Positions 11,899 through 54,351 of a stretch of 64,000 nucleotides of DNA are shown one piece after another; the stretch's first letter is position 1, and every line of letters begins with the position of its first letter. Below the pieces are notes generated by a model. That model saw nothing but the letters and a program-made list of their open reading frames with translations, made no database searches and was not told the origin of the DNA. The translations under genes and the position numbers were made by a program. The stretch comes from an uncultured Latescibacterota bacterium (GTDB lineage Bacteria > Latescibacterota > UBA2968): the NCBI GenBank assembly GCA_958295785.1, contig OY282377.1, forward strand, positions 3,722,896 to 3,786,895, in the 5' to 3' direction.

Positions 11899-11942
11899 AT
11901 TGTATGTTCCTTTCAGTTGTCAGTTGTCAGTTGTCAAAGGAT

Positions 11943-12392
11943 TATACCAATTTGATTTTTATTTTTCCTTATTCCGCATCCCATCAGGGACGAATGAGGA
12001 ATGAGGAACAGACGCTCTGTAGAGATCATGCATTGCTTGTCTCAAGCATTTGGCCTAACTCCTCGTTGGTTATTTTTGATGCCTTCGGCGACTTCCTTTT
12101 TTTCAACAGCAAAAAAAAGGAAGCAAAAAATGCCGCTCTCAAACGCCGAGGGACTGGCACAGCGCAAATCGCTTTTGTAACAGAACGACATGCGCGGGCC
12201 TGCGAAGGAAAGTTGCAAGAGGGAGGTTGGTTGCGAGACGGCCTTGCGCGCTGTGCGTGATGGTTTTATCTGATGGTCTTTTGCGATGGCCTTATTGCAA
12301 TGGCTTCTCTGAATGTCTGGGTAACGTCAAGGGAATCATTTGCTGGCAATATATCGCATCCCATCAGGTCAACAGCTATTCAAATTGGTGTA
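11943..12392 (+). repeat. interspersed ~450-bp element, copy 1
   Basis: Ends are imperfect inverted repeats: TATACCAATTTGA at the left and TCAAATTGGTGTAA at the right. Inside: a TCCC-ATCA-GGGA hairpin; a hairpin CTTCCTTTTTTT (12093-12104), loop CAACAGC, AAAAAAAAGGAAG (12112-12124); and GCACAGCGCAA able to pair with TTGCGCGCTGTGC further on. Related copies lie at 32217-32655 (opposite orientation) and 44995-45409. It fills most of the 11899-12638 gap; the rest (12393-12638) shows no gene. Reading frames in the three copies do not give one consistent protein, so a non-coding mobile or RNA element is more likely than a gene. Confidence 0.8.
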
Positions 12393-12638
12393 ACCCCCGT
12401 TACGCGCTCCGCTCGTTGTAGGCGACACCTGTGCCTACGAGGAAGGGGGAATCAAGCCATCCCGACGAGAAAAGGTGGCAGAACATCTCCCCTCCATTAT
12501 CCCCGTCTCCGCGCGTTTTGTCAAGGTGAAATCCGCAGGCCACCGCGCGATAGGCGTGGATTTTCTGTTTGACACACGCGCCATATCCCGTCAAATTAAA
12601 TTTCCGTTTTAGACCTTTATCTTTTTAAGGAGTGTTGC

Positions 12639-14724: not shown

Positions 14725-14763
14725 AAGCCCGGGTTCACTGCGAACTCGGGCTTGTATTTTTTT
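14725..14763 (+). terminator. intrinsic terminator
   Basis: Stem AAGCCCGGGTTC (14725-14736) with GAACTCGGGCTT (14742-14753), 5-nt loop, then GTATTTTTTT. It ends the isomerase/oxidoreductase unit; the converging TRAP permease gene ends beyond it. Confidence 0.85.
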
Positions 14764-14799
14764 GGGCGGGCACGGGGGCACCGCCCCTGCGATTGCCTT

Positions 14800-19194: not shown

Positions 19195-19260
19195 CAAAGA
19201 TCCTTCTTGTATCTTTGGGCGAGCACGGGGGCATCGCCCCTACACATACTGCGGGCGAGC
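19195..19260. repeat. GC-rich repeat copy in the 19129-19379 gap
   Basis: TTGTATCTTTGGGCGAGCAC followed by GGGGGCATCGCCCCTACACA: one copy of the scattered palindromic unit. A second degenerate stretch with CTTGTATCTTGCGTCTTAC lies just before the next gene. No coding sequence seen. Confidence 0.7.
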
Positions 19261-23800: not shown

Positions 23801-24100
23801 CAATTTTTCCTTTCCTATTCGGTGACGCTGGTTCAGACAGGACATTAACGTAGGGGCGATGCCCCCGTGCCCGCCCGAAAATGCAAGATGAAAGATGCGA
23901 GGATAGAAACGTAGGGGTGATGCCCCCGTGTTCGCCCGAAAATGCAAGATGAAAGGTACACAAATTCCATAATTAGGGCAAGGTCGGTTTTGGCGATCAA
24001 TTCCAGCGGCGCGATATCCTCCCATCGATGAATCGGCGAATCTACAAACGGGATTTACACACAAGATACAAGACGCGAAGATAAAACGCTCCTATCTCGT
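23801..24100. repeat. repeat-filled gap with two tandem GC-rich units
   Basis: Two near-identical units of about 58 bp at roughly 23850-23907 and 23908-23965. Each has GTAGGGGCGATGCCCCCGTG, then CCGCCCGAAAATGCAAGATG (second copy GGTGATG and TTCGCCC variants), and continues into AAAG. The rest (23966-24100) has no recognisable feature. Confidence 0.8.
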
Positions 24101-30626: not shown

Positions 30627-30635
30627 AGCAGAAAA

Positions 30636-30738
30636 GATGGATCGCGGATTAAACGGATGGCGCGGATTGCGCGGATGAAAGGCGAAAACCAACCCCACAA
30701 AAACGTAGGGGCGATGCCCCCGTGCCCGCCCAAAGATA
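30636..30738 (-). repeat. composite ~105-bp repeat, copy upstream of sbcD
   Basis: Reading on the minus strand: the GC-rich palindromic unit (GGGCGGGCACGGGGGCATCG), then TGTGGGGTTGGTTTTCGCCT, then ATCCGCGCAATCCGCGCCAT and AATCCGCGATCCATCTTTTC just before the sbcD start. Other copies: 34497-34612, 52531-52640, 53913-54028. Confidence 0.85.
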
Positions 30739-30809
30739 CAAGTTTGGATGTTGGGAAAGCGGCGACAACTGCGCCGGTAGGTCAAGACCGTGGGGAAAAT
30801 TTAAGGAAG

Positions 30810-32216: not shown

Positions 32217-32655
32217 TAATACCAAATTGATTTTCTGTTGACCTAATGTGATGCGATATGCTACCCGCAAATGATTCCTTTGACGTTACGCAGTCATTCG
32301 AAGAAGCCATGGCAAAAATGCTATCCCAAAAGACCATCAGACAAAGCCATCACGCACAGCGCGCAAGGCAGTCTCGCAACCCACCTCCCTCTTGCAACTT
32401 CCTTCGCAGGGCCAGCGCATGTCGTCCTATTACAAAAGCGGTTTGCGCTGTGCAAGCCCCTCGGCGCATGAGAGCGGCATTTTTGAACTGCTGAGGCAGT
32501 TGTACCCCGCTCGCCTACTTTTTTTTGCTGTTGAAAAAAAGTAGGTCGCCGCACGCCGTAGGCACAGGCGTAGCCAACGCATCAAAGGCAACCCACATAG
32601 AGGCAGAACCAAACGCTTTACGTAAGTCTGTCCCCAATTCTTCATTTTGGTATTA
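32217..32655 (-). repeat. interspersed ~440-bp element, copy 2 (inverted)
   Basis: Terminal inverted repeats TAATACCAAATTGA (32217-32230) and TCATTTTGGTATTA (32642-32655), 13 of 14 matching. Internal hairpin, plus-strand coordinates: CCTACTTTTTTTT (32514-32526), loop GCTGTTG, AAAAAAAGTAGG (32534-32545). The GCACAGCGCAA/TTGCGCGCTGTGC pair is also present. Relative to copies 1 and 3 it carries two small inserts (about 32483-32512 and 32550-32575) and lacks the left TCCC-ATCA-GGGA hairpin. Confidence 0.8.
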
Positions 32656-34392: not shown

Positions 34393-34496
34393 GATAATGT
34401 TCTGATTTTACAATAGGTTGCGTTATTCCTGCATCCTATCCTATGCAAACAACATGCCAATTTAAGGCCTCCACCGCGCCGCCCATCCGCCTTGCA

Positions 34497-34612
34497 TCTT
34501 GCCTTTTCGGGCGGGCACGGGGGCACCGCCCCTACGTTTTTGTGGGGTTGGTTTTCGCCTTTCATCCGCGCAATCCGCGCCATCCGTTTAATCCGCGATC
34601 CATCTTTCTTAT
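34497..34612 (+). repeat. composite ~105-bp repeat, copy after malate synthase
   Basis: GGGCGGGCACGGGGGCACCG, CCCCTACGTTTTTGTGGGGT, TGGTTTTCGCCTTTCATCCG and the CAATCCGCGCCATCCGTTTA / AATCCGCGATCCATCTTTCT tail, in plus orientation. The malate synthase stop codon lies in a neighbouring ATGCGTTCATCTGCGGATGC motif of the same type. Confidence 0.85.
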
Positions 34613-43156: not shown

Positions 43157-43354
43157 AAAAGACCTCCAAAGCGAATCTACGAACGGGTTACAACTGACCG
43201 TTTCTCAGTTCATCAGCGGTCAGCAGTCAGCAGTCAGCAAAACAAGCAATCAGCGGTGGAGCGACGGGGGCTGATAGCTGATAGCATCTTGTATCTTCGG
43301 ACGGGCACAGGGACCACGCCCCGACGTTTCATCTGCGGATACTCACTCCTCGCC
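43157..43354. repeat. repeat-bearing gap before purE
   Basis: Contains CAGCGGTCAGCAGTCAGCAG-type short repeats (about 43213-43245) and a degenerate GC-rich unit (CGGACGGGCACAGGGACCAC, about 43297-43330). No gene seen. Confidence 0.6.
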
Positions 43355-43867: not shown

Positions 43868-44959
43868 TAGGACTTACGCATGCTGAGTTAAAAAAGGGTG
43901 CAATTCCGTAAAATTTATCACTTTGAGGAGGTGTCAATGCGCCAACCGACGCGTTTGGATTACTGTCAGTATCTGCTTAGCAGTCCCCTCAACGATACCC
44001 TGACCCCTTTCGCCGACCATAGCGAAGGGTTCAGTCATGATATGATCAACCGCTATCTCGCCGGTGAGCGTATCCCACCCCGCTTGGTGTGGGAACACGT
44101 CAAAGACCACATCGCGTTGACGCCTGAAGGCTATGTGATCTTTGATGACACGGTTTTAGACAAGCGACACGCACGCAAGATCGCGTTAGTGCGCCGTCAA
44201 TATAGCGGCAACGCCCAAGGCGTCATCAATGGCATTGGGGTGGTCACATGTGTCTATGTCCATCCGCAACAGGATCGGTTCTGGCTGATTGACTATCGGA
44301 TTTATGACCCGCAAGGCGATGGCAAAACCAAATTGGATCATCTCAAGGACATGCTCTCTGGGTTGGTCTATCAGAAGGACCTTCCTTTTACCGGGGTCTT
44401 GATGGACAGTTGGCATGCGACCAAAACGGTCATGCTACACATAGAGCAGATGCAAAAAACCTATTATTGTCCCCTCAAGACGAACCGGCGCGTGGACGAG
44501 TAGGCAGGCACAATCCCCTACCAGCGCGTAGATAGCTTAACTTGGACTCAAGCGCAACGCAAACAAGGCAAGTCAATTAAAATCAGAGGGTTCCCCAAAG
44601 ACCACAAAGTGAAATTATTCCGGGTGGCGTCTGCTGATAGACGCACGGCGTATGTCGTGACCAACGACCATGCTCAAAACGATTCTTCAGGGGTACAACA
44701 GGTGTGTCACCAAAGATGGAAAATTGAGCCATTTCACCGCGAAGTCAAACAAGTGACCGGGCTTGAAAAGTGTCAATGTCGGTTGGCACGCATTGTACGA
44801 AATCATATTGGGTGTGCGATGTTAGTTTGGATTCGACTCGAGCAGGTGGCCTATCAAACAGGACAAACCATTTATCAAGTCAAATACCGAGGGCTGGCTG
44901 ACTTCTTGAGACAACAACTCAAAGCACCTCATATTCCAATGGTGATTGCGTAAGTCCTA
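43868..44959 (+). mobile_element. IS701-like insertion sequence, 1.09 kb
   Basis: Perfect 13-bp terminal inverted repeats TAGGACTTACGCA (43868-43880) and TGCGTAAGTCCTA (44947-44959), flanked by the direct repeat TATAG (43863-43867 and 44960-44964), probably the target duplication. One transposase gene. The insertion separates purE from the third interspersed repeat. Confidence 0.85.
43937..44953 (+). pseudogene. IS701-like DDE transposase interrupted by an amber codon
   Basis: 338 codons in a single frame after GAGGAGGTGTCA. DDE residues are recognisable: FDDTVLDK (first Asp), LMDSWHATK (second Asp), KIEPFHREVKQ (Glu). Closely follows the pattern of cyanobacterial-type IS701/IS4-superfamily enzymes. 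A TAG at 44501-44503 (after NRRVDE) splits it; the frame resumes with AGTIPYQRVDSLTW and no shift. As TAG is a normal stop elsewhere in the window (for example enolase), this is most likely an inactivating point mutation. Confidence 0.85.
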
Positions 44960-44994
44960 TATAGGTGTTGTGCGGAGACTGCCCGCTGACTGCT

Positions 44995-45409
44995 TATACC
45001 AATTTGCTTTCAAGTTGTCCGTATCCTGCCTCCCATCAGGGAGGAATGAGAAATGAGGAACAGACTTACGTAAAGCGTTTGATTCTGCCTCCTTGTGGGT
45101 TGCCTTCGATGCCTTCGGCGACCGACTTTTTTTCAACAGCAAAAAAAGTAGGCAAAAAATGCCGCTCTCAAACGCCGAGAGGCTTGCACAGCGCAAACCG
45201 CTTTTGTAGCACTACGACATGCGCTGGCCTGCCAAGTGGGTTGCATCATGGCTGTGGGTTGCGAGACGGCCTTGCGCGCTGTGCGTGATGGTTTTGTCTG
45301 ATGGTCTTTTGGGATGGCCTTGTTGCAATGGCTTCTTTGAATGACTGTGTAACGTCAAGGGAATCGGGTAGCATATCGCATCACATCAGGGCAACAGAAA
45401 ATCAATTTA
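44995..45409 (+). repeat. interspersed element, copy 3, right end cut by an IS5-family remnant
   Basis: Starts TATACCAATTTGC and ends at ATCAATTTA, where IS5-type sequence takes over, so the right terminal repeat is lost. Contains a perfect CCTCCC-ATCA-GGGAGG hairpin (about 45031-45046), the CCGACTTTTTTT (45122-45133)/AAAAAAAGTAGG (45141-45152) hairpin around CAACAGC, and the GCACAGCGCAA/TTGCGCGCTGTGC pair. Same orientation as copy 1. Confidence 0.8.
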
Positions 45410-45483
45410 GAAGCTCTAACATAAAGAAATCAAGCGTCTGAAACAGAGGAGTGAACACCCGCAGGAACGCCTCAAAGTCGGCC
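45408..45483 (-). mobile_element. IS5-family right-end fragment A
   Basis: About 75 bp starting TTAGAAGCTCTAACATAAAG. On the minus strand it reads DFEAFLRVFTPLFQTLDFFM, parallel to the C-terminus of the next fragment (IHEAFLSMGCSLICFRCLIS). Only the extreme end of the element remains. Confidence 0.6.
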
Positions 45484-45521
45484 TCTCACAAATCCATGTC
45501 AACCCTTTTTGTTAGGGACTC

Positions 45522-45835
45522 TTAGAAGCCCTAACAAAAAGAAATCAAGCATCTGAAACAGATGAGAGAACAGCCCATGGACAGGAACGCCTCATGGATG
45601 TCCGCTCTGCGCTCGTCGCGCACCCGCAGTCTGCGGAACTGCCGGAGCCAGGCCAGAGTCCGCTCAACGACCCACCGGTACGCGCCCAACCCGCTACCAT
45701 GCCCTGCGCCCCGGCGGGCTATCACCGGCGAGATGTGGCGCAAACGCAGGGCCTTCCGGTGCGCCCTCGAGTCATAGGCACGGTCCGCATACAGCCGTTG
45801 GGGTCTGCGGCGCGGACGACCGCATTTGCCCCTGA
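45522..45835 (-). pseudogene. IS5-family transposase, C-terminal fragment B
   Basis: Begins at the element end TTAGAAGCCCTAACAAAAAG. On the minus strand it encodes the C-terminal third of an IS5/IS427-type transposase: GRPRRRPQRLYADRAYDS, ISPVIARRGAGHGSGLGAYR and WVVERTLAWLRQFRRLRVRD (holding the catalytic Glu), ending in LICFRCLISFC. The N-terminal two thirds are absent. It abuts the 3' end of a methyltransferase pseudogene. Confidence 0.75.
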
Positions 45836-47807: not shown

Positions 47808-49791
47808 GGTGAGCCTATCTTCCTCATTACTGCCGCATTAAAAGGGAACTCCGCCTTCCAAAGGTGGTTGAAACCGCCTCCCACGCGCACATACTGGCCG
47901 GCGCCGATGCGAGCAATATCATACTCCGGGAGAGGGATTCTCACCATACACTTCCCGTCGAATATCACGCCGCGCTTATAAAAATTGAAGTCCAGGTTGT
48001 CGAAGCCATGCCCCCGGCGATGGTCGGGCAGGTCGTTCACGTCAACCGGGTACAGGTGGAGGAAGAACATTGCTTTGGTGTCGGCCGGGGCGCATGGGTC
48101 TTTGACGTAGCCCAGCGTGTTCTCGCTGAGATATACGTCAAAGTCGGAGCGAATGACGGGTTCGCCGTCGTAGGCGGGGAGGGCCGCCAGTTCGCGGGAC
48201 GCTTTGATGTTCTCAATCAGAGCGATCTTGAATACTCCGTCGTCGGTGACATGCTCAACTGAAACTTGCCAGCCCAGCAGTTCCAATTTCTCCGGTATTG
48301 ATATTTTGCTAACTAGGAAGATTCTATCTGGAACATTGGAGAACGAGGCGATCAAGGTGATCAAATCGATCATCTCACGGAGACACCGACGGAGACCCGG
48401 TCCGGCGGAGGCCCCACACCAGCGGGTCCCATAGTAGTAATTGTCTGGGCTTCCCTCTTCTCCGTGGTAGAACCGGATGGCCGGGACCGTCCCCGAGACT
48501 GCGTAAACCATGTCATCTTCCCGCACCCGTTCTTCTAGTGCGGCAAGAACGGATTTGATGTTTTTACGTGTCTTGTATGGACTGTCCTGCCTCATGGCGT
48601 CCACTCCGGCTAGGGCTGTGGCGCCAACGACCGCGACGACCAGTGCCGGCGCAGCCACACCCGGTGCGTCGGCGCAGCCAGACTATCAGCTATCCAATGG
48701 ATGGCGACGCCTGCGACCAGGAAGACGACCGGCCCCAGATAGATAACCTGGCGAATGCCCCCAAGGGGGTATATTCCCAGCAAGGCGGCGCCGACGGAAA
48801 CCGCGATGCAAAGCGTAAATAAAACCGCGATGGCACCGCCGGGAAACTCTCCTTGAAACTTTCCAAGGAATGCCGCGACCAGGAGGAGCGCGAAGGCGAC
48901 AAGCGCCGCTGTCGCGACAACCCACGGCAAATGATACGTCAATAAACCCCAGGTCCCGTCGATCGAAAACTCGAAGATCGAGTGCGCTTCAAATTTCCCC
49001 TGGTAGTAATTCTTCTGTAAGTAGCTTTTCGAGGCAAATCCTCCTTCTTGCCATTGATAGCGCAAAGTGACCGCGTAGCTTATGGCGCACCCCGCCAGGA
49101 AGCACCCCGCCGGCCAGACCAGAGCGATGCGTTGCCTGAGCCAATGAGGAATCCGGCTCAGGTACGAGTTCTCTTCCGATGCCCCCAAAGTCGGGGGAGG
49201 CAGAACCACAGCGGTGCCAATGACGGCGACGCCGAACAGAACCAGGCCGTACTGGAGCAAGGGCGCGAGGAACAGTGAAACGCAGAGCAGGGACTTCCTG
49301 CCGTCCCGCAGATACCCCAGCAGCCCCGCTATCATCAGCGCGGCAAGCAGCGCGTCGATGGAGTATTCGCGCGCATCCTGGGCGTGCTCTATTGCGGCAA
49401 CCGAAAGAGTCGCCAGCAGAGCCGCCAGAAACGCGGCCCACCGGTTCACTCCGGCGCGGGGAAGCAGAAAGAGCAGGGCCGCCACGGTCAGAACGCTGGC
49501 CGTGGCCGGTAGAATGCGGATGCTGAAGGCGGATACATCTACTTTCTGTACCGCCCACAGTGCCAGAGGATACAGTATTGGCGAGGAGTTCCTGTGGCGG
49601 GTATTGGGGATTACTTCCGAGAGGGTGCCACTCGAATTATTGGCGGCAACCGCTTCGTCATACCATACGGAATGCCCCGGCAGGTCATAGAAGCGCAACC
49701 CCGCCGCCACTACGAGCAGGCACACGAACGCCGCAAGAACCAGCCGTTCCGGAGAAACACGTGCGGGGAGGGAGCGGACGGGAATGCTCAT
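47804..49791 (-). pseudogene. GT39-like membrane glycosyltransferase, second tandem copy, frameshifted
   Basis: Paralogue of the next gene upstream. The N-terminal ~393 codons (49791 down to about 48650) contain the catalytic WYDEAVAANNSS loop and about 9-11 membrane helices (for example VWPAGCFLAGCAISYAVTLR). Near 48650, after THRVW, the frame is lost; the C-terminal soluble part continues in another frame to 47804 (LAALEERVREDDMVYAVSGT, NLDFNFYKRGVIFDGKCMVR). It starts with ATG overlapping the upstream stop (ATGA) and ends overlapping the deacetylase start. A one-base loss explains the break; whether it is mutation or sequencing error is not decidable here. Confidence 0.75.
49324..49695. 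repeat. 372-bp near-identical tract shared by the two GT39 genes (copy in second gene)
   Basis: Matches 51282-51653 at 371 of 372 bases by direct reading (difference at 49373/51331), while sequence either side is clearly divergent. Encodes the catalytic loop and the next two to three membrane helices. Confidence 0.9.
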
Positions 49792-51749
49792 TTGCCTTCT
49801 CTCCAAGGGAACTCCGCCTTCCAAAGGTGGTTGAAACCGCCTGCCACGGGCACGTACTGGCCGGTACTGATGCGGGTAATATCATACTCAGGGAGAGCCA
49901 CCGTCGCCATACATCTCCCGTTGCCGAAGAGTGCCACGCTATACCCCCTGAAGGTGAAATCCAGGTTATCGAAGCCGTACTGCTTGCGATGGTCGGGTAG
50001 GTCAGCCACATCAGCGGGAATCAGGTGCAGAAAGAATTTCGCATCCGTGTCGGCGCGGTCGCACGCCTCCCTGACATATACCAGCGTGTTGTCGCTGATG
50101 TATATGTCGAAGTCGGAGCGAATTACGGGTTTGCCGGTTGCCAGCGCCTCGTAAGCGGAACGGTCCTCCGCTTCGACCGACCCTCTAGCGTTCATAATCA
50201 GATTGACCTTGAGACGTCTGCCATCAATGACACGCTCAACTGAAAATTGCTCTCCCAGCGGTTCCAACACATCCCATAATGACGATCTGCACTCATGTAC
50301 CCAGAAGATTCTATTTGGGACATTGGGTTGCGAGATGACAAAATCGGCCATCTCCTGGATGTACTTTTTGCCGCCGTCCGCGCATCTTGTCTTCCCATAG
50401 TAGTAGTTGCCCGGTTTTTCATCTTGATAGAGCTTCAGAAAGCGGGCCGCATATGCGGTTGCGTAAACCATGTCTCCTTCTTCCACATGTTCTTTTAGAA
50501 ACTTGGTGGCGTCGTAGGTTTTTTCATACGGACTGTCTCGCCACAGGTCGCCCACTCCGGCAAGTGCTATTGCGCCGACCGCCGCGGCGGCAAGCATCGG
50601 AGCCACCCACGCCCGGCGCGTGAGCGCGGACAGACTCTCAATCATCCAATGGATGGAGACGCCGGCGGCCAGAAAGATGACCGGTCCCAGATAGATGTTT
50701 TGGCGAATCCCTCCAAAGGGGTAAAGGTTCAGTATGACGGCAGCGACGGAAACCGCGATGCACAACAAAAATAAGACTGCGATGGCACTGTCTTGAAGAT
50801 TTCCTTGAAACCTTCTGAAGAATGACGCGACGAGGAGGAGCGCGAAGGCGACAAGCGCCGCTGTCGCGACAACCCACGGCAAATGATACGTCAATAAACT
50901 CCAGAGCCCGTCAATCGAAAACTCGAAGATCGACTGTGCATCGAGTTTTCCCTGATAGTAATACGTCGACAAATAGCCATCCGGGCCGAAGAGCGGTATC
51001 CCCCAGTGATAGCGCAAAGTGACCGCGTAGCTTAGGGCGCACCCGGCCAGAAAACACCCTGCCGGCCAAACCAGGGCGATGCGTTGCTTGAGCCAATGAC
51101 GAAGCCGGATTAGGGATGTATCCCGTTCCGGCGGCGCTGAATTCGGGGGGGGGCGGGGTAGAACCATAGCGGCGCCCATTACGGCAACGCCGAACAGAAC
51201 CAGACCGTACTGGAGCAACGGCGCAAGGAACAGGTAAAGGCAGAGCAGGGCCTTCCGGCCATCCCGCAGATACCACAGCAACCCCGCTATCATCAGCGCG
51301 GCAAGCAGCGCGTCGATGGAGTATTCGCGCACATCCTGGGCGTGCTCTATTGCGGCAACCGAAAGAGTCGCCAGCAGAGCCGCCAGAAACGCGGCCCACC
51401 GGTTCACTCCGGCGCGGGGAAGCAGAAAGAGCAGGGCCGCCACGGTCAGAACGCTGGCCGTGGCCGGTAGAATGCGGATGCTGAAGGCGGATACATCTAC
51501 TTTCTGTACCGCCCACAGTGCCAGAGGATACAGTATTGGCGAGGAGTTCCTGTGGCGGGTATTGGGGATTACTTCCGAGAGGGTGCCACTCGAATTATTG
51601 GCGGCAACCGCTTCGTCATACCATACGGAATGCCCCGGCAGGTCATAGAAGCGTAGCCCCGCCGCCACTAGGAGCAGGCATACGAACGCCGCAAGAACCA
51701 GCCGTTCCCGAGAAACGCGCACGGGCCGGGCGGGGACGGGAATGTTCAT
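49788..51749 (-). CDS. GT39-like membrane glycosyltransferase
   Basis: 653 residues from MNIPVPARPV; the same initiator position is used by the tandem copy. GT-C fold: first membrane helix LVLAAFVCLLLVAAGLRFYD, then VWYDEAVAA with Asp45-Glu46 in the first periplasmic loop, as in PMT/ArnT-type enzymes, about ten further helices, and a ~220-residue C-terminal soluble domain (LKEHVEEGDMVYATAYAARF). Such enzymes transfer sugars from polyprenyl-phosphate donors to proteins or lipids outside the membrane. First gene of a three-gene envelope operon (GT39, GT39, NodB-like). A longer start at 51797 is possible. Confidence 0.82.
   Translation of the reverse strand: MNIPVPARPVRVSRERLVLAAFVCLLLVAAGLRFYDLPGHSVWYDEAVAANNSSGTLSEVIPNTRHRNSSPILYPLALWAVQKVDVSAFSIRILPATASVLTVAALLFLLPRAGVNRWAAFLAALLATLSVAAIEHAQDVREYSIDALLAALMIAGLLWYLRDGRKALLCLYLFLAPLLQYGLVLFGVAVMGAAMVLPRPPPNSAPPERDTSLIRLRHWLKQRIALVWPAGCFLAGCALSYAVTLRYHWGIPLFGPDGYLSTYYYQGKLDAQSIFEFSIDGLWSLLTYHLPWVVATAALVAFALLLVASFFRRFQGNLQDSAIAVLFLLCIAVSVAAVILNLYPFGGIRQNIYLGPVIFLAAGVSIHWMIESLSALTRRAWVAPMLAAAAVGAIALAGVGDLWRDSPYEKTYDATKFLKEHVEEGDMVYATAYAARFLKLYQDEKPGNYYYGKTRCADGGKKYIQEMADFVISQPNVPNRIFWVHECRSSLWDVLEPLGEQFSVERVIDGRRLKVNLIMNARGSVEAEDRSAYEALATGKPVIRSDFDIYISDNTLVYVREACDRADTDAKFFLHLIPADVADLPDHRKQYGFDNLDFTFRGYSVALFGNGRCMATVALPEYDITRISTGQYVPVAGGFNHLWKAEFPWREGK
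51282..51653. repeat. 372-bp near-identical tract (copy in first GT39 gene)
   Basis: Partner of 49324-49695 at a fixed offset of 1958 bp. The sharp boundaries indicate recent gene conversion or unequal crossover. Confidence 0.9.
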
Positions 51750-52500: not shown

Positions 52501-52530
52501 TGTCGTTCTTAGTCTTACGTCTTGTATCTT

Positions 52531-52640
52531 GCATTTTCGGACAGGCACAGGGGCCGCGCCCCTACGTTTTTGTGGGGTTGGTTTTCGCCTTTCATCCGCG
52601 CAATCCGCGTCATCCGTTTAATCCGCGATCCGTCTTTCCA
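52531..52640 (+). repeat. composite ~105-bp repeat, copy at the methyltransferase breakpoint
   Basis: TTGCATTTTCGGACAGGCAC, AGGGGCCGCGCCCCTACGTT, TTTGTGGGGTTGGTTTTCGC and the ATCCGCG tail, ending CGATCCGTCTTTCC. Lies between the truncated methyltransferase and the Gfo/Idh stop codon. Confidence 0.85.
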
Positions 52641-53750: not shown

Positions 53751-54063
53751 GACGTTTCTCCCGTAGATGTCGGATTGTTTTTTTATCGACTCAAAATTAT
53801 GACGCGCAACCGCCGAATGGGTTGACCAAGATCAAAAAATCCCAAACCCTATCGCGCCATCGCCATCCAGATCGCACCTCATGCGCCCCCTTATTGCGGG
53901 GAGATGTTCTTGCATCTTGCATTTTTGGGCGAGCACGGGGGCATCGCCCCTACGTTTTTGTGGGGTTGGTTTTCGCCTTTCATCCGCGCAATCCGCGTAA
54001 TCCGTTTAATCCGCGATCCATCTTTCATTTTTGGGCGAGCACGGGGGCATCGCCCCTACGTTT
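53751..54063. repeat. repeat cluster between Gfo/Idh and antitoxin-like gene
   Basis: A full composite repeat at 53913-54028 (GGGCGAGCACGGGGGCATCG, CCCTACGTTTTTGTGGGGTT, TTTAATCCGCGATCCATCTT), then a second GC-rich unit with TTTCTATCCTCGCATCTTGC at 54029-54080, running into the next gene's 3' end. No gene in 53751-54063. Confidence 0.85.
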
Positions 54064-54351
54064 CTATCCTCGCATCTTGCCTTTGCCTTTCATCCGCGTA
54101 ATCTGCTTAATCCTCGATCCGCATCTTTCCTTTCGCACCCATAAGGCACTATCGCTCATATCCTTGCGTTCCGCCCACATCCCAAAGAAAGGCAAGGCAA
54201 CGAAATTTTTGCGTTCATTGGACGCAAGGCTTTGACGAGCGGTGTTGATCGGTTCAATATGTATGATCACTTCTGTTCCTTCGGGCAGGGACAAAGGCTT
54301 GGAAAACAAAATGTTTCCATCTTGTATCTTACCGCGTTCCACAAACGCCAT
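54064..54351 (-). CDS. small antitoxin-like protein with a repeat-derived C-terminus
   Basis: 95 residues. The N-terminal beta-hairpin (VERGKIQDGNILFSKPLSLP, then EGTEVIIHIEPIN) matches small type II antitoxins of the AF2212/AbrB-like kind, and FVALPFFGMWAERKDM-SDSALWVRKER is the usual toxin-binding tail. After WVRKER the last ~19 residues (GSRIKQITRMKGKGKMRG) are encoded by the ATCCGCGTAATC-type repeat, which also supplies the stop. No VapC/PIN toxin follows, so it is an orphan. Start overlaps the purD 3' end by 23 nt. Confidence 0.65.
   Translation of the reverse strand: MAFVERGKIQDGNILFSKPLSLPEGTEVIIHIEPINTARQSLASNERKNFVALPFFGMWAERKDMSDSALWVRKERCGSRIKQITRMKGKGKMRG

Follow-up and report, generated by a model that had tools for sequence, protein, structure and literature searches.

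Copies of the element in the window

The window, which is the whole stretch of 64,000 nucleotides analysed here, lies in a 5.66-Mb single-contig Latescibacterota genome (the host genome). It contains three copies of a dispersed element with terminal inverted repeats (TIRs) and an internal hairpin. All three are found where the sequence-only reading had placed them, copies 1 and 3 on the + strand and copy 2 on the - strand. The TIR core, the CAACAGC loop and the long-range pair GCACAGCGC/GCGCTGTGC that it described are all present, and the hairpin arms are those it gave, with CTTCC/GGAAG in copy 1 and CCGAC/GTAGG, including one mismatch, in copy 3. The CCTAC/GTAGG stem of copy 2 was read by eye, because an altered linker made the parsing script miss it.

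11942..12393, + strand: copy 1, full length (TTA, TACCAATTTG ... CAAATTGGTG, TAA)
11945..11954, + strand: left TIR of copy 1, TACCAATTTG
12081..12089, + strand: mini-hairpin H0, GCC-TTC-GGC (GTC-TTC-GAC in two relative sequences)
12092..12123, + strand: hairpin P1, CTTCC-T7-CAACAGC-A8-GGAAG
12132..12154, + strand: hairpin H2, GCC.CTC-loop-GAG.GGA (exchanged in relatives for a GC-rich alternative)
12157..12165, + strand: 5' arm of the long-range stem P3, GCACAGCGC
12248..12256, + strand: 3' arm of P3, GCGCTGTGC
12381..12390, + strand: right TIR of copy 1, CAAATTGGTG
32217..32655, - strand: copy 2, left end partly deleted, CCTAC/GTAGG stem, long-form H0 module
44994..45409, + strand: copy 3, CCGAC/GTAGG stem with one mismatch, right end fused with another repeat

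Family size and occurrence

The hairpin motif TTTTTCAACAGCAAAAA, with at most one mismatch, has 118 + 72 = 190 matches in the host genome and none for the reversed-pattern control, and the TIR motif has 107 + 80 = 187 matches versus 1 for its reversed pattern. A profile search of 2.45 Mb (43% of the host genome), comprising regions picked around the hairpin and TIR motifs, tiles, and the window, finds 214 stretches, about 93 of them near full length at about 420-520 bp. The MITE-like family has roughly 200 copies in the host genome, and the three window copies are a sample of it. Full copies are mostly 84-96% identical to their nearest neighbour (median 89%, maximum 96%), so the burst is not fresh.

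The hairpin-core pattern matches GTDB contigs only in MAGs titled Latescibacterota or Latescibacteria. A BLAST search of the core against plasmids gave no match, and a literature search found no description of the Latescibacterota element. The left-shell pattern occurs 151 times in the host genome and is absent from ten genomes of the same genus. Copies show a modest preference for gene 3' ends (178 of 296 flanks), too slight to suggest a cis-regulatory role.

Ends and target-site duplication

The family TIRs are TACCAATTTG/CAAATTGGTA, and aligned ends read TTA or TAA, TACCAATTTG...CAAATTGGTA, TTA or TAA. The check for target-site duplications that the sequence-only reading proposed yields identical 3-bp TNA flanks in 40 of the 54 copies with settable ends (TTA 23, TAA 15, TGA 2), compared with a mean of 20.4 and a maximum of 30 in the shuffle control. 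The non-identical flanks of the other 14 count against a MITE. For a few copies, e.g., e3657903, queries made by joining the two flanks match paralogous repeats that lack the element, with the alignment running through the junction.

The element is shorter than 600 bp, has no coding sequence, and carries both TIRs and a target-site duplication. Together with the lineage-specific burst, these features back the MITE-like possibility raised from the window alone, and the element is very probably a non-autonomous, MITE-like transposable element. In its 3-bp TNA duplication it resembles the IS5 subgroup (IS1031-like), of which such a duplication is a trait. An IS5-like DDE transposase would move the shell in trans; the 3-bp TNA duplication is what points to this family, as no autonomous element with these ends is found in the searched 43% of the host genome. 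Solitary left ends, exact-TIR places and TIR pairs 120-3000 bp apart were inspected for such a partner, and the candidates proved to be other transposons inserted into copies.

Two other transposons, one with ends GGGAATTATATA and one with ends TAGGACTTACGC, sit in the T-run of the hairpin, which looks like an insertion hotspot. The copies that they split are as follows (genome coordinates):

520412-522062: L145
946840-948371: L154
1174385-1176073: L158

Inner cassette and other shells

The sequence-only reading did not foresee a division into shell and core. Conservation within the genus is limited to an inner core of about 180 nt, in the order GCCTTCGGC (H0), P1, GCAAAAAA, H2, and GCACAGCGC...GCGCTGTGC (P3). 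Relatives of the same genus carry this core in other shells and in low copy, about 1-13 each by DNA search or model. Genome G014, from another genus, has 48 core copies, and weaker matches occur in another family of the order and in one further family of the class. The cassette is older than the shell and recognisable to class level.

Two shells were read by eye in the relatives. Type A has the inverted ends GGGTGTGCATAA/TTATGCACACCC, and type B has ends like TGACGTTACGCA. In some relatives, the alignment to the host element covers positions 83-410 of the 473 in the model. The host element therefore looks like a type B element, and may be an older one of about 330 bp that came to lie inside a new outer shell. 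In place of H0, a long palindrome (GCGT..GGCTACGCC..GCCTACGGCGTGC) is seen at L268 and at window 32217-32655; both the host genome and genome G008 have it, and it is probably another exchangeable module.

Hairpin pairing and module exchange

Pairing was assessed over 24 distinct sequences, 22 from relatives and 2 from the host genome. H0, P1 and H2 are paired in 99.4% of cells, and seven pairs are changed on both sides, a number reached by 0 of 500 shuffles; structures slid along the alignment drop to 40-60% paired. P1 in the relatives comprises several different stems, with 395 of 396 pairs Watson-Crick, no G-U and one mismatch. An outer long-range helix, P0 (GCCTTCGGCG/CGCCGAGGGGC), is favoured by energy and was rejected, since it fits the substitutions worse than the local H0 and H2; outside P1, no pair of P0 is changed on both sides versus two in H0/H2.

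In the host genome, a perfect 5-bp stem is present in only 54 of 103 parsed copies. Stem pairing there is still above that of shuffles (442 versus a mean of 386 and a maximum of 415), and CCGAC/GTAGG, CCTCC/GGAAG and others are mixed arms of subfamilies. Five groups of orthologous loci with conserved flanks contain different hairpin cassettes in the same place (L098, L099 and L105 versus L264; L108 versus L265 and L257; L262 versus L111; L263 versus L260; L097 versus L113), and a swap of the H2 cassette alters the length by about 4-5 nt. The orthologous pair L092 and L266 differs by paired changes.

The paired changes show that the hairpin is preserved or re-copied as a unit within the genus, and they are no proof of an RNA fold selected in the host genome. 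The claim that compensatory change reflects a maintained fold therefore stands in part: near-perfect pairing and the seven double changes in same-genus relatives uphold it, while the imperfect half of host stems, the lack of G-U in P1 and the replacement of whole cassettes do not. Modules may be exchanged by gene conversion between dispersed copies. Copying en bloc or template switching could keep the pairing perfect, and selection for a hairpin may contribute.

Orientation and replication

The GC skew is too weak to place the origin or terminus, and dnaA, at 4.696 Mb, is therefore used as the presumed origin reference. Copies are co-oriented with the replication fork in 29 of 30 cases within 0.5 Mb of dnaA (p = 6e-8), in 52 of 63 within 1 Mb, and in 120 of 178 overall. 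The bare hairpin motif gives 26 of 27 near dnaA. Four other dispersed repeats have no such bias near dnaA (15/34, 16/29, 4/10 and 2/3 co-oriented). As orientation tracks the fork in this region, both arms have the same strand of the element as lagging-strand template. With distance from dnaA the bias weakens, and the far left arm lacks it; the whole left arm has 41 copies on the + and 44 on the - strand. A rearrangement or a misplaced terminus could account for the loss. In the relative G008, 7 of about 8 copies point the opposite way; these copies are few and without the host shell.

This orientation bias is unusual and is the most surprising observation. DDE MITEs do not ordinarily show it, which counts against the MITE-like reading. 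The bias might arise at insertion or by later selection. The match between orientation and fork near dnaA suggests, in a testable manner, that the insertion or survival of a MITE is tied to replication.

Alternative explanations

Orientation near dnaA, together with the strong hairpins, would also suit single-strand movement on the lagging strand, as in IS200/IS605, with the hairpin acting as the folded end of the DNA. That mechanism involves neither TIRs nor target duplication and has terminal hairpins, whereas the element has both TIRs and duplications and its hairpin is internal, which makes such movement very unlikely. A decayed protein gene or a short peptide gene deserves almost no credence. 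The longest stop-free stretches (median 110-119 aa) do exceed those of mono-shuffles (60-75), but the copies are related, so the excess amounts to about one sample. Two mostly open frames share one strand, codon-phase substitution rates are nearly equal (0.079/0.102/0.104), and indels and cassette swaps disrupt the frame. A protein-coding origin was rejected on the nearly equal phases and the frame-breaking swaps; no frame shows coding constraint, in agreement with the earlier statement that the copies have no common open frame.

The core could be a dispersed structured RNA gene or a cis-acting RNA whose fold is selected, perhaps on the strand opposite to that of the sequence-only reading. The pairing in the 24 sequences favours this, as do the six P3 departures on the + strand, all of which become G-U wobbles when the - strand is read. 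On that strand H2 also precedes a T-run, scored as terminator-like in a GC-type relative copy. Set against it are P1 without G-U, double changes that are a few discrete hairpin types swapped whole, and the broken half of parsed host-genome stems. P4 departures favour neither strand, and a scan of copy 1 gave terminator-like sites on the + strand only. Rfam, at gathering and relaxed thresholds, has no match in the window or in L001, L092 and L096, and no consistent gene neighbour or orientation was found for the copies. Paired changes often come from whole-hairpin replacement, which weakens the case for a selected fold; a functional RNA is unlikely. The same lack of G-U and discrete hairpin types, with in-place replacement in five orthologous groups and mosaic arms in the host genome, would be expected if the paired changes owed nothing to selection on the fold and were produced solely by copies recombining and by template switches that copy one arm. 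Template switching is a published route by which perfect hairpins are created and maintained (PMC8794818). This is compatible with a MITE and a serious contender, at a little short of even chances; against it, all the alternative cassettes, even the GC-type one, which is unrelated, still form hairpins laid out alike, and recombination by itself would not call for this. A bolder view, and rather a long shot, is that the cassette is itself a modular hairpin element with fork polarity. It would pass from one MITE shell to another, unrelated one and exchange its hairpin modules in place, and it would spread or survive only where a particular strand serves as lagging-strand template close to the origin.

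Comparison with known elements

As a non-autonomous MITE-like element, the family is new; its shell is ordinary in kind, while its cargo and fork-polar distribution are not. Bacterial MITEs such as ERIC/RU, Correia elements and MITEAba12 (PMC2229807) are likewise short and non-coding, with inverted ends, target duplication, many intergenic copies and a foldable interior. In the Latescibacterota element, by contrast, the interior predates the shell, is shared with other shells of relatives and swaps hairpin modules in place, and the orientation of copies tracks replication near dnaA. TIMEs, mosaic non-autonomous elements derived from Tn3 (PMC4133298), are similar in being mosaic and passenger-carrying with inverted ends; the Latescibacterota ends and target duplication differ, and the passenger is a structured cassette. 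Non-autonomous derivatives of the IS5 family (IS1031-like) share the 3-bp TNA target duplication, whereas no transposase or matching autonomous IS is found here in the searched 43%.

The family separates the shell of a bacterial MITE from its cargo, with an old hairpin cassette in several shells within one genus and about 200 copies in one lineage. It is also a natural case in which 'compensatory' changes can arise when hairpins are copied whole, and so a warning for RNA discovery that relies on covariation.

A similar hairpin repeat from Proteobacteria, GTTACTTTTCTTTG...CAAAGAAAAGTAACCAAAAGAAA, was used as a query. Burkholderia, Paraburkholderia, Pseudoalteromonas, Ilyobacter and other plasmid or secondary-replicon records contain it, often more than once. 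The Burkholderia, Pseudoalteromonas and Ilyobacter repeats are likewise multi-copy and resemble the element in layout, with a hairpin of T-run and A-run arms, then CAAAA(G)AAA, then a structured stretch. Their sequence is mostly different, and the covariance model scores them weakly, 26 bits at best; the likeness is one of layout, and common ancestry is not claimed. In two Pseudoalteromonas records (L275, L277), the stretch beside the repeated T-run/A-run hairpin has an opposite-strand match to Rfam TwoAYGGAY, suggesting that this RNA motif may belong to a dispersed repeat; the Latescibacterota elements lack such a match. TwoAYGGAY is listed as a probable RNA with probably no cis-regulatory role (PMC2864571).

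Other repeats and transposons nearby

Beside copy 3, positions 43898-44953 contain pieces of DDE transposase genes (PF13546 and PF01609 matches). The dispersed repeat CCTAACAAAAAGCGTTG/TTTAGAAGCCCTAACA, at 45400-45540, abuts copy 3 and several other copies and has 93 matches in the searched sequence. Another dispersed repeat, with the core GATGCCCCCGTGCCCGCCC, has 238 matches in the searched 2.45 Mb, of which 93 are co-oriented, slightly against the fork. Its places in the window are as follows:

1702-1757, 14750-14794, 19203-19247, 23839-23955, 30633-30749
34491-34608, 43285-43329, 52521-52638, 53909-54078

Positions 47842-51450 comprise tandem segments about 1.95 kb apart and 76-93% identical, apparently a duplicated gene.
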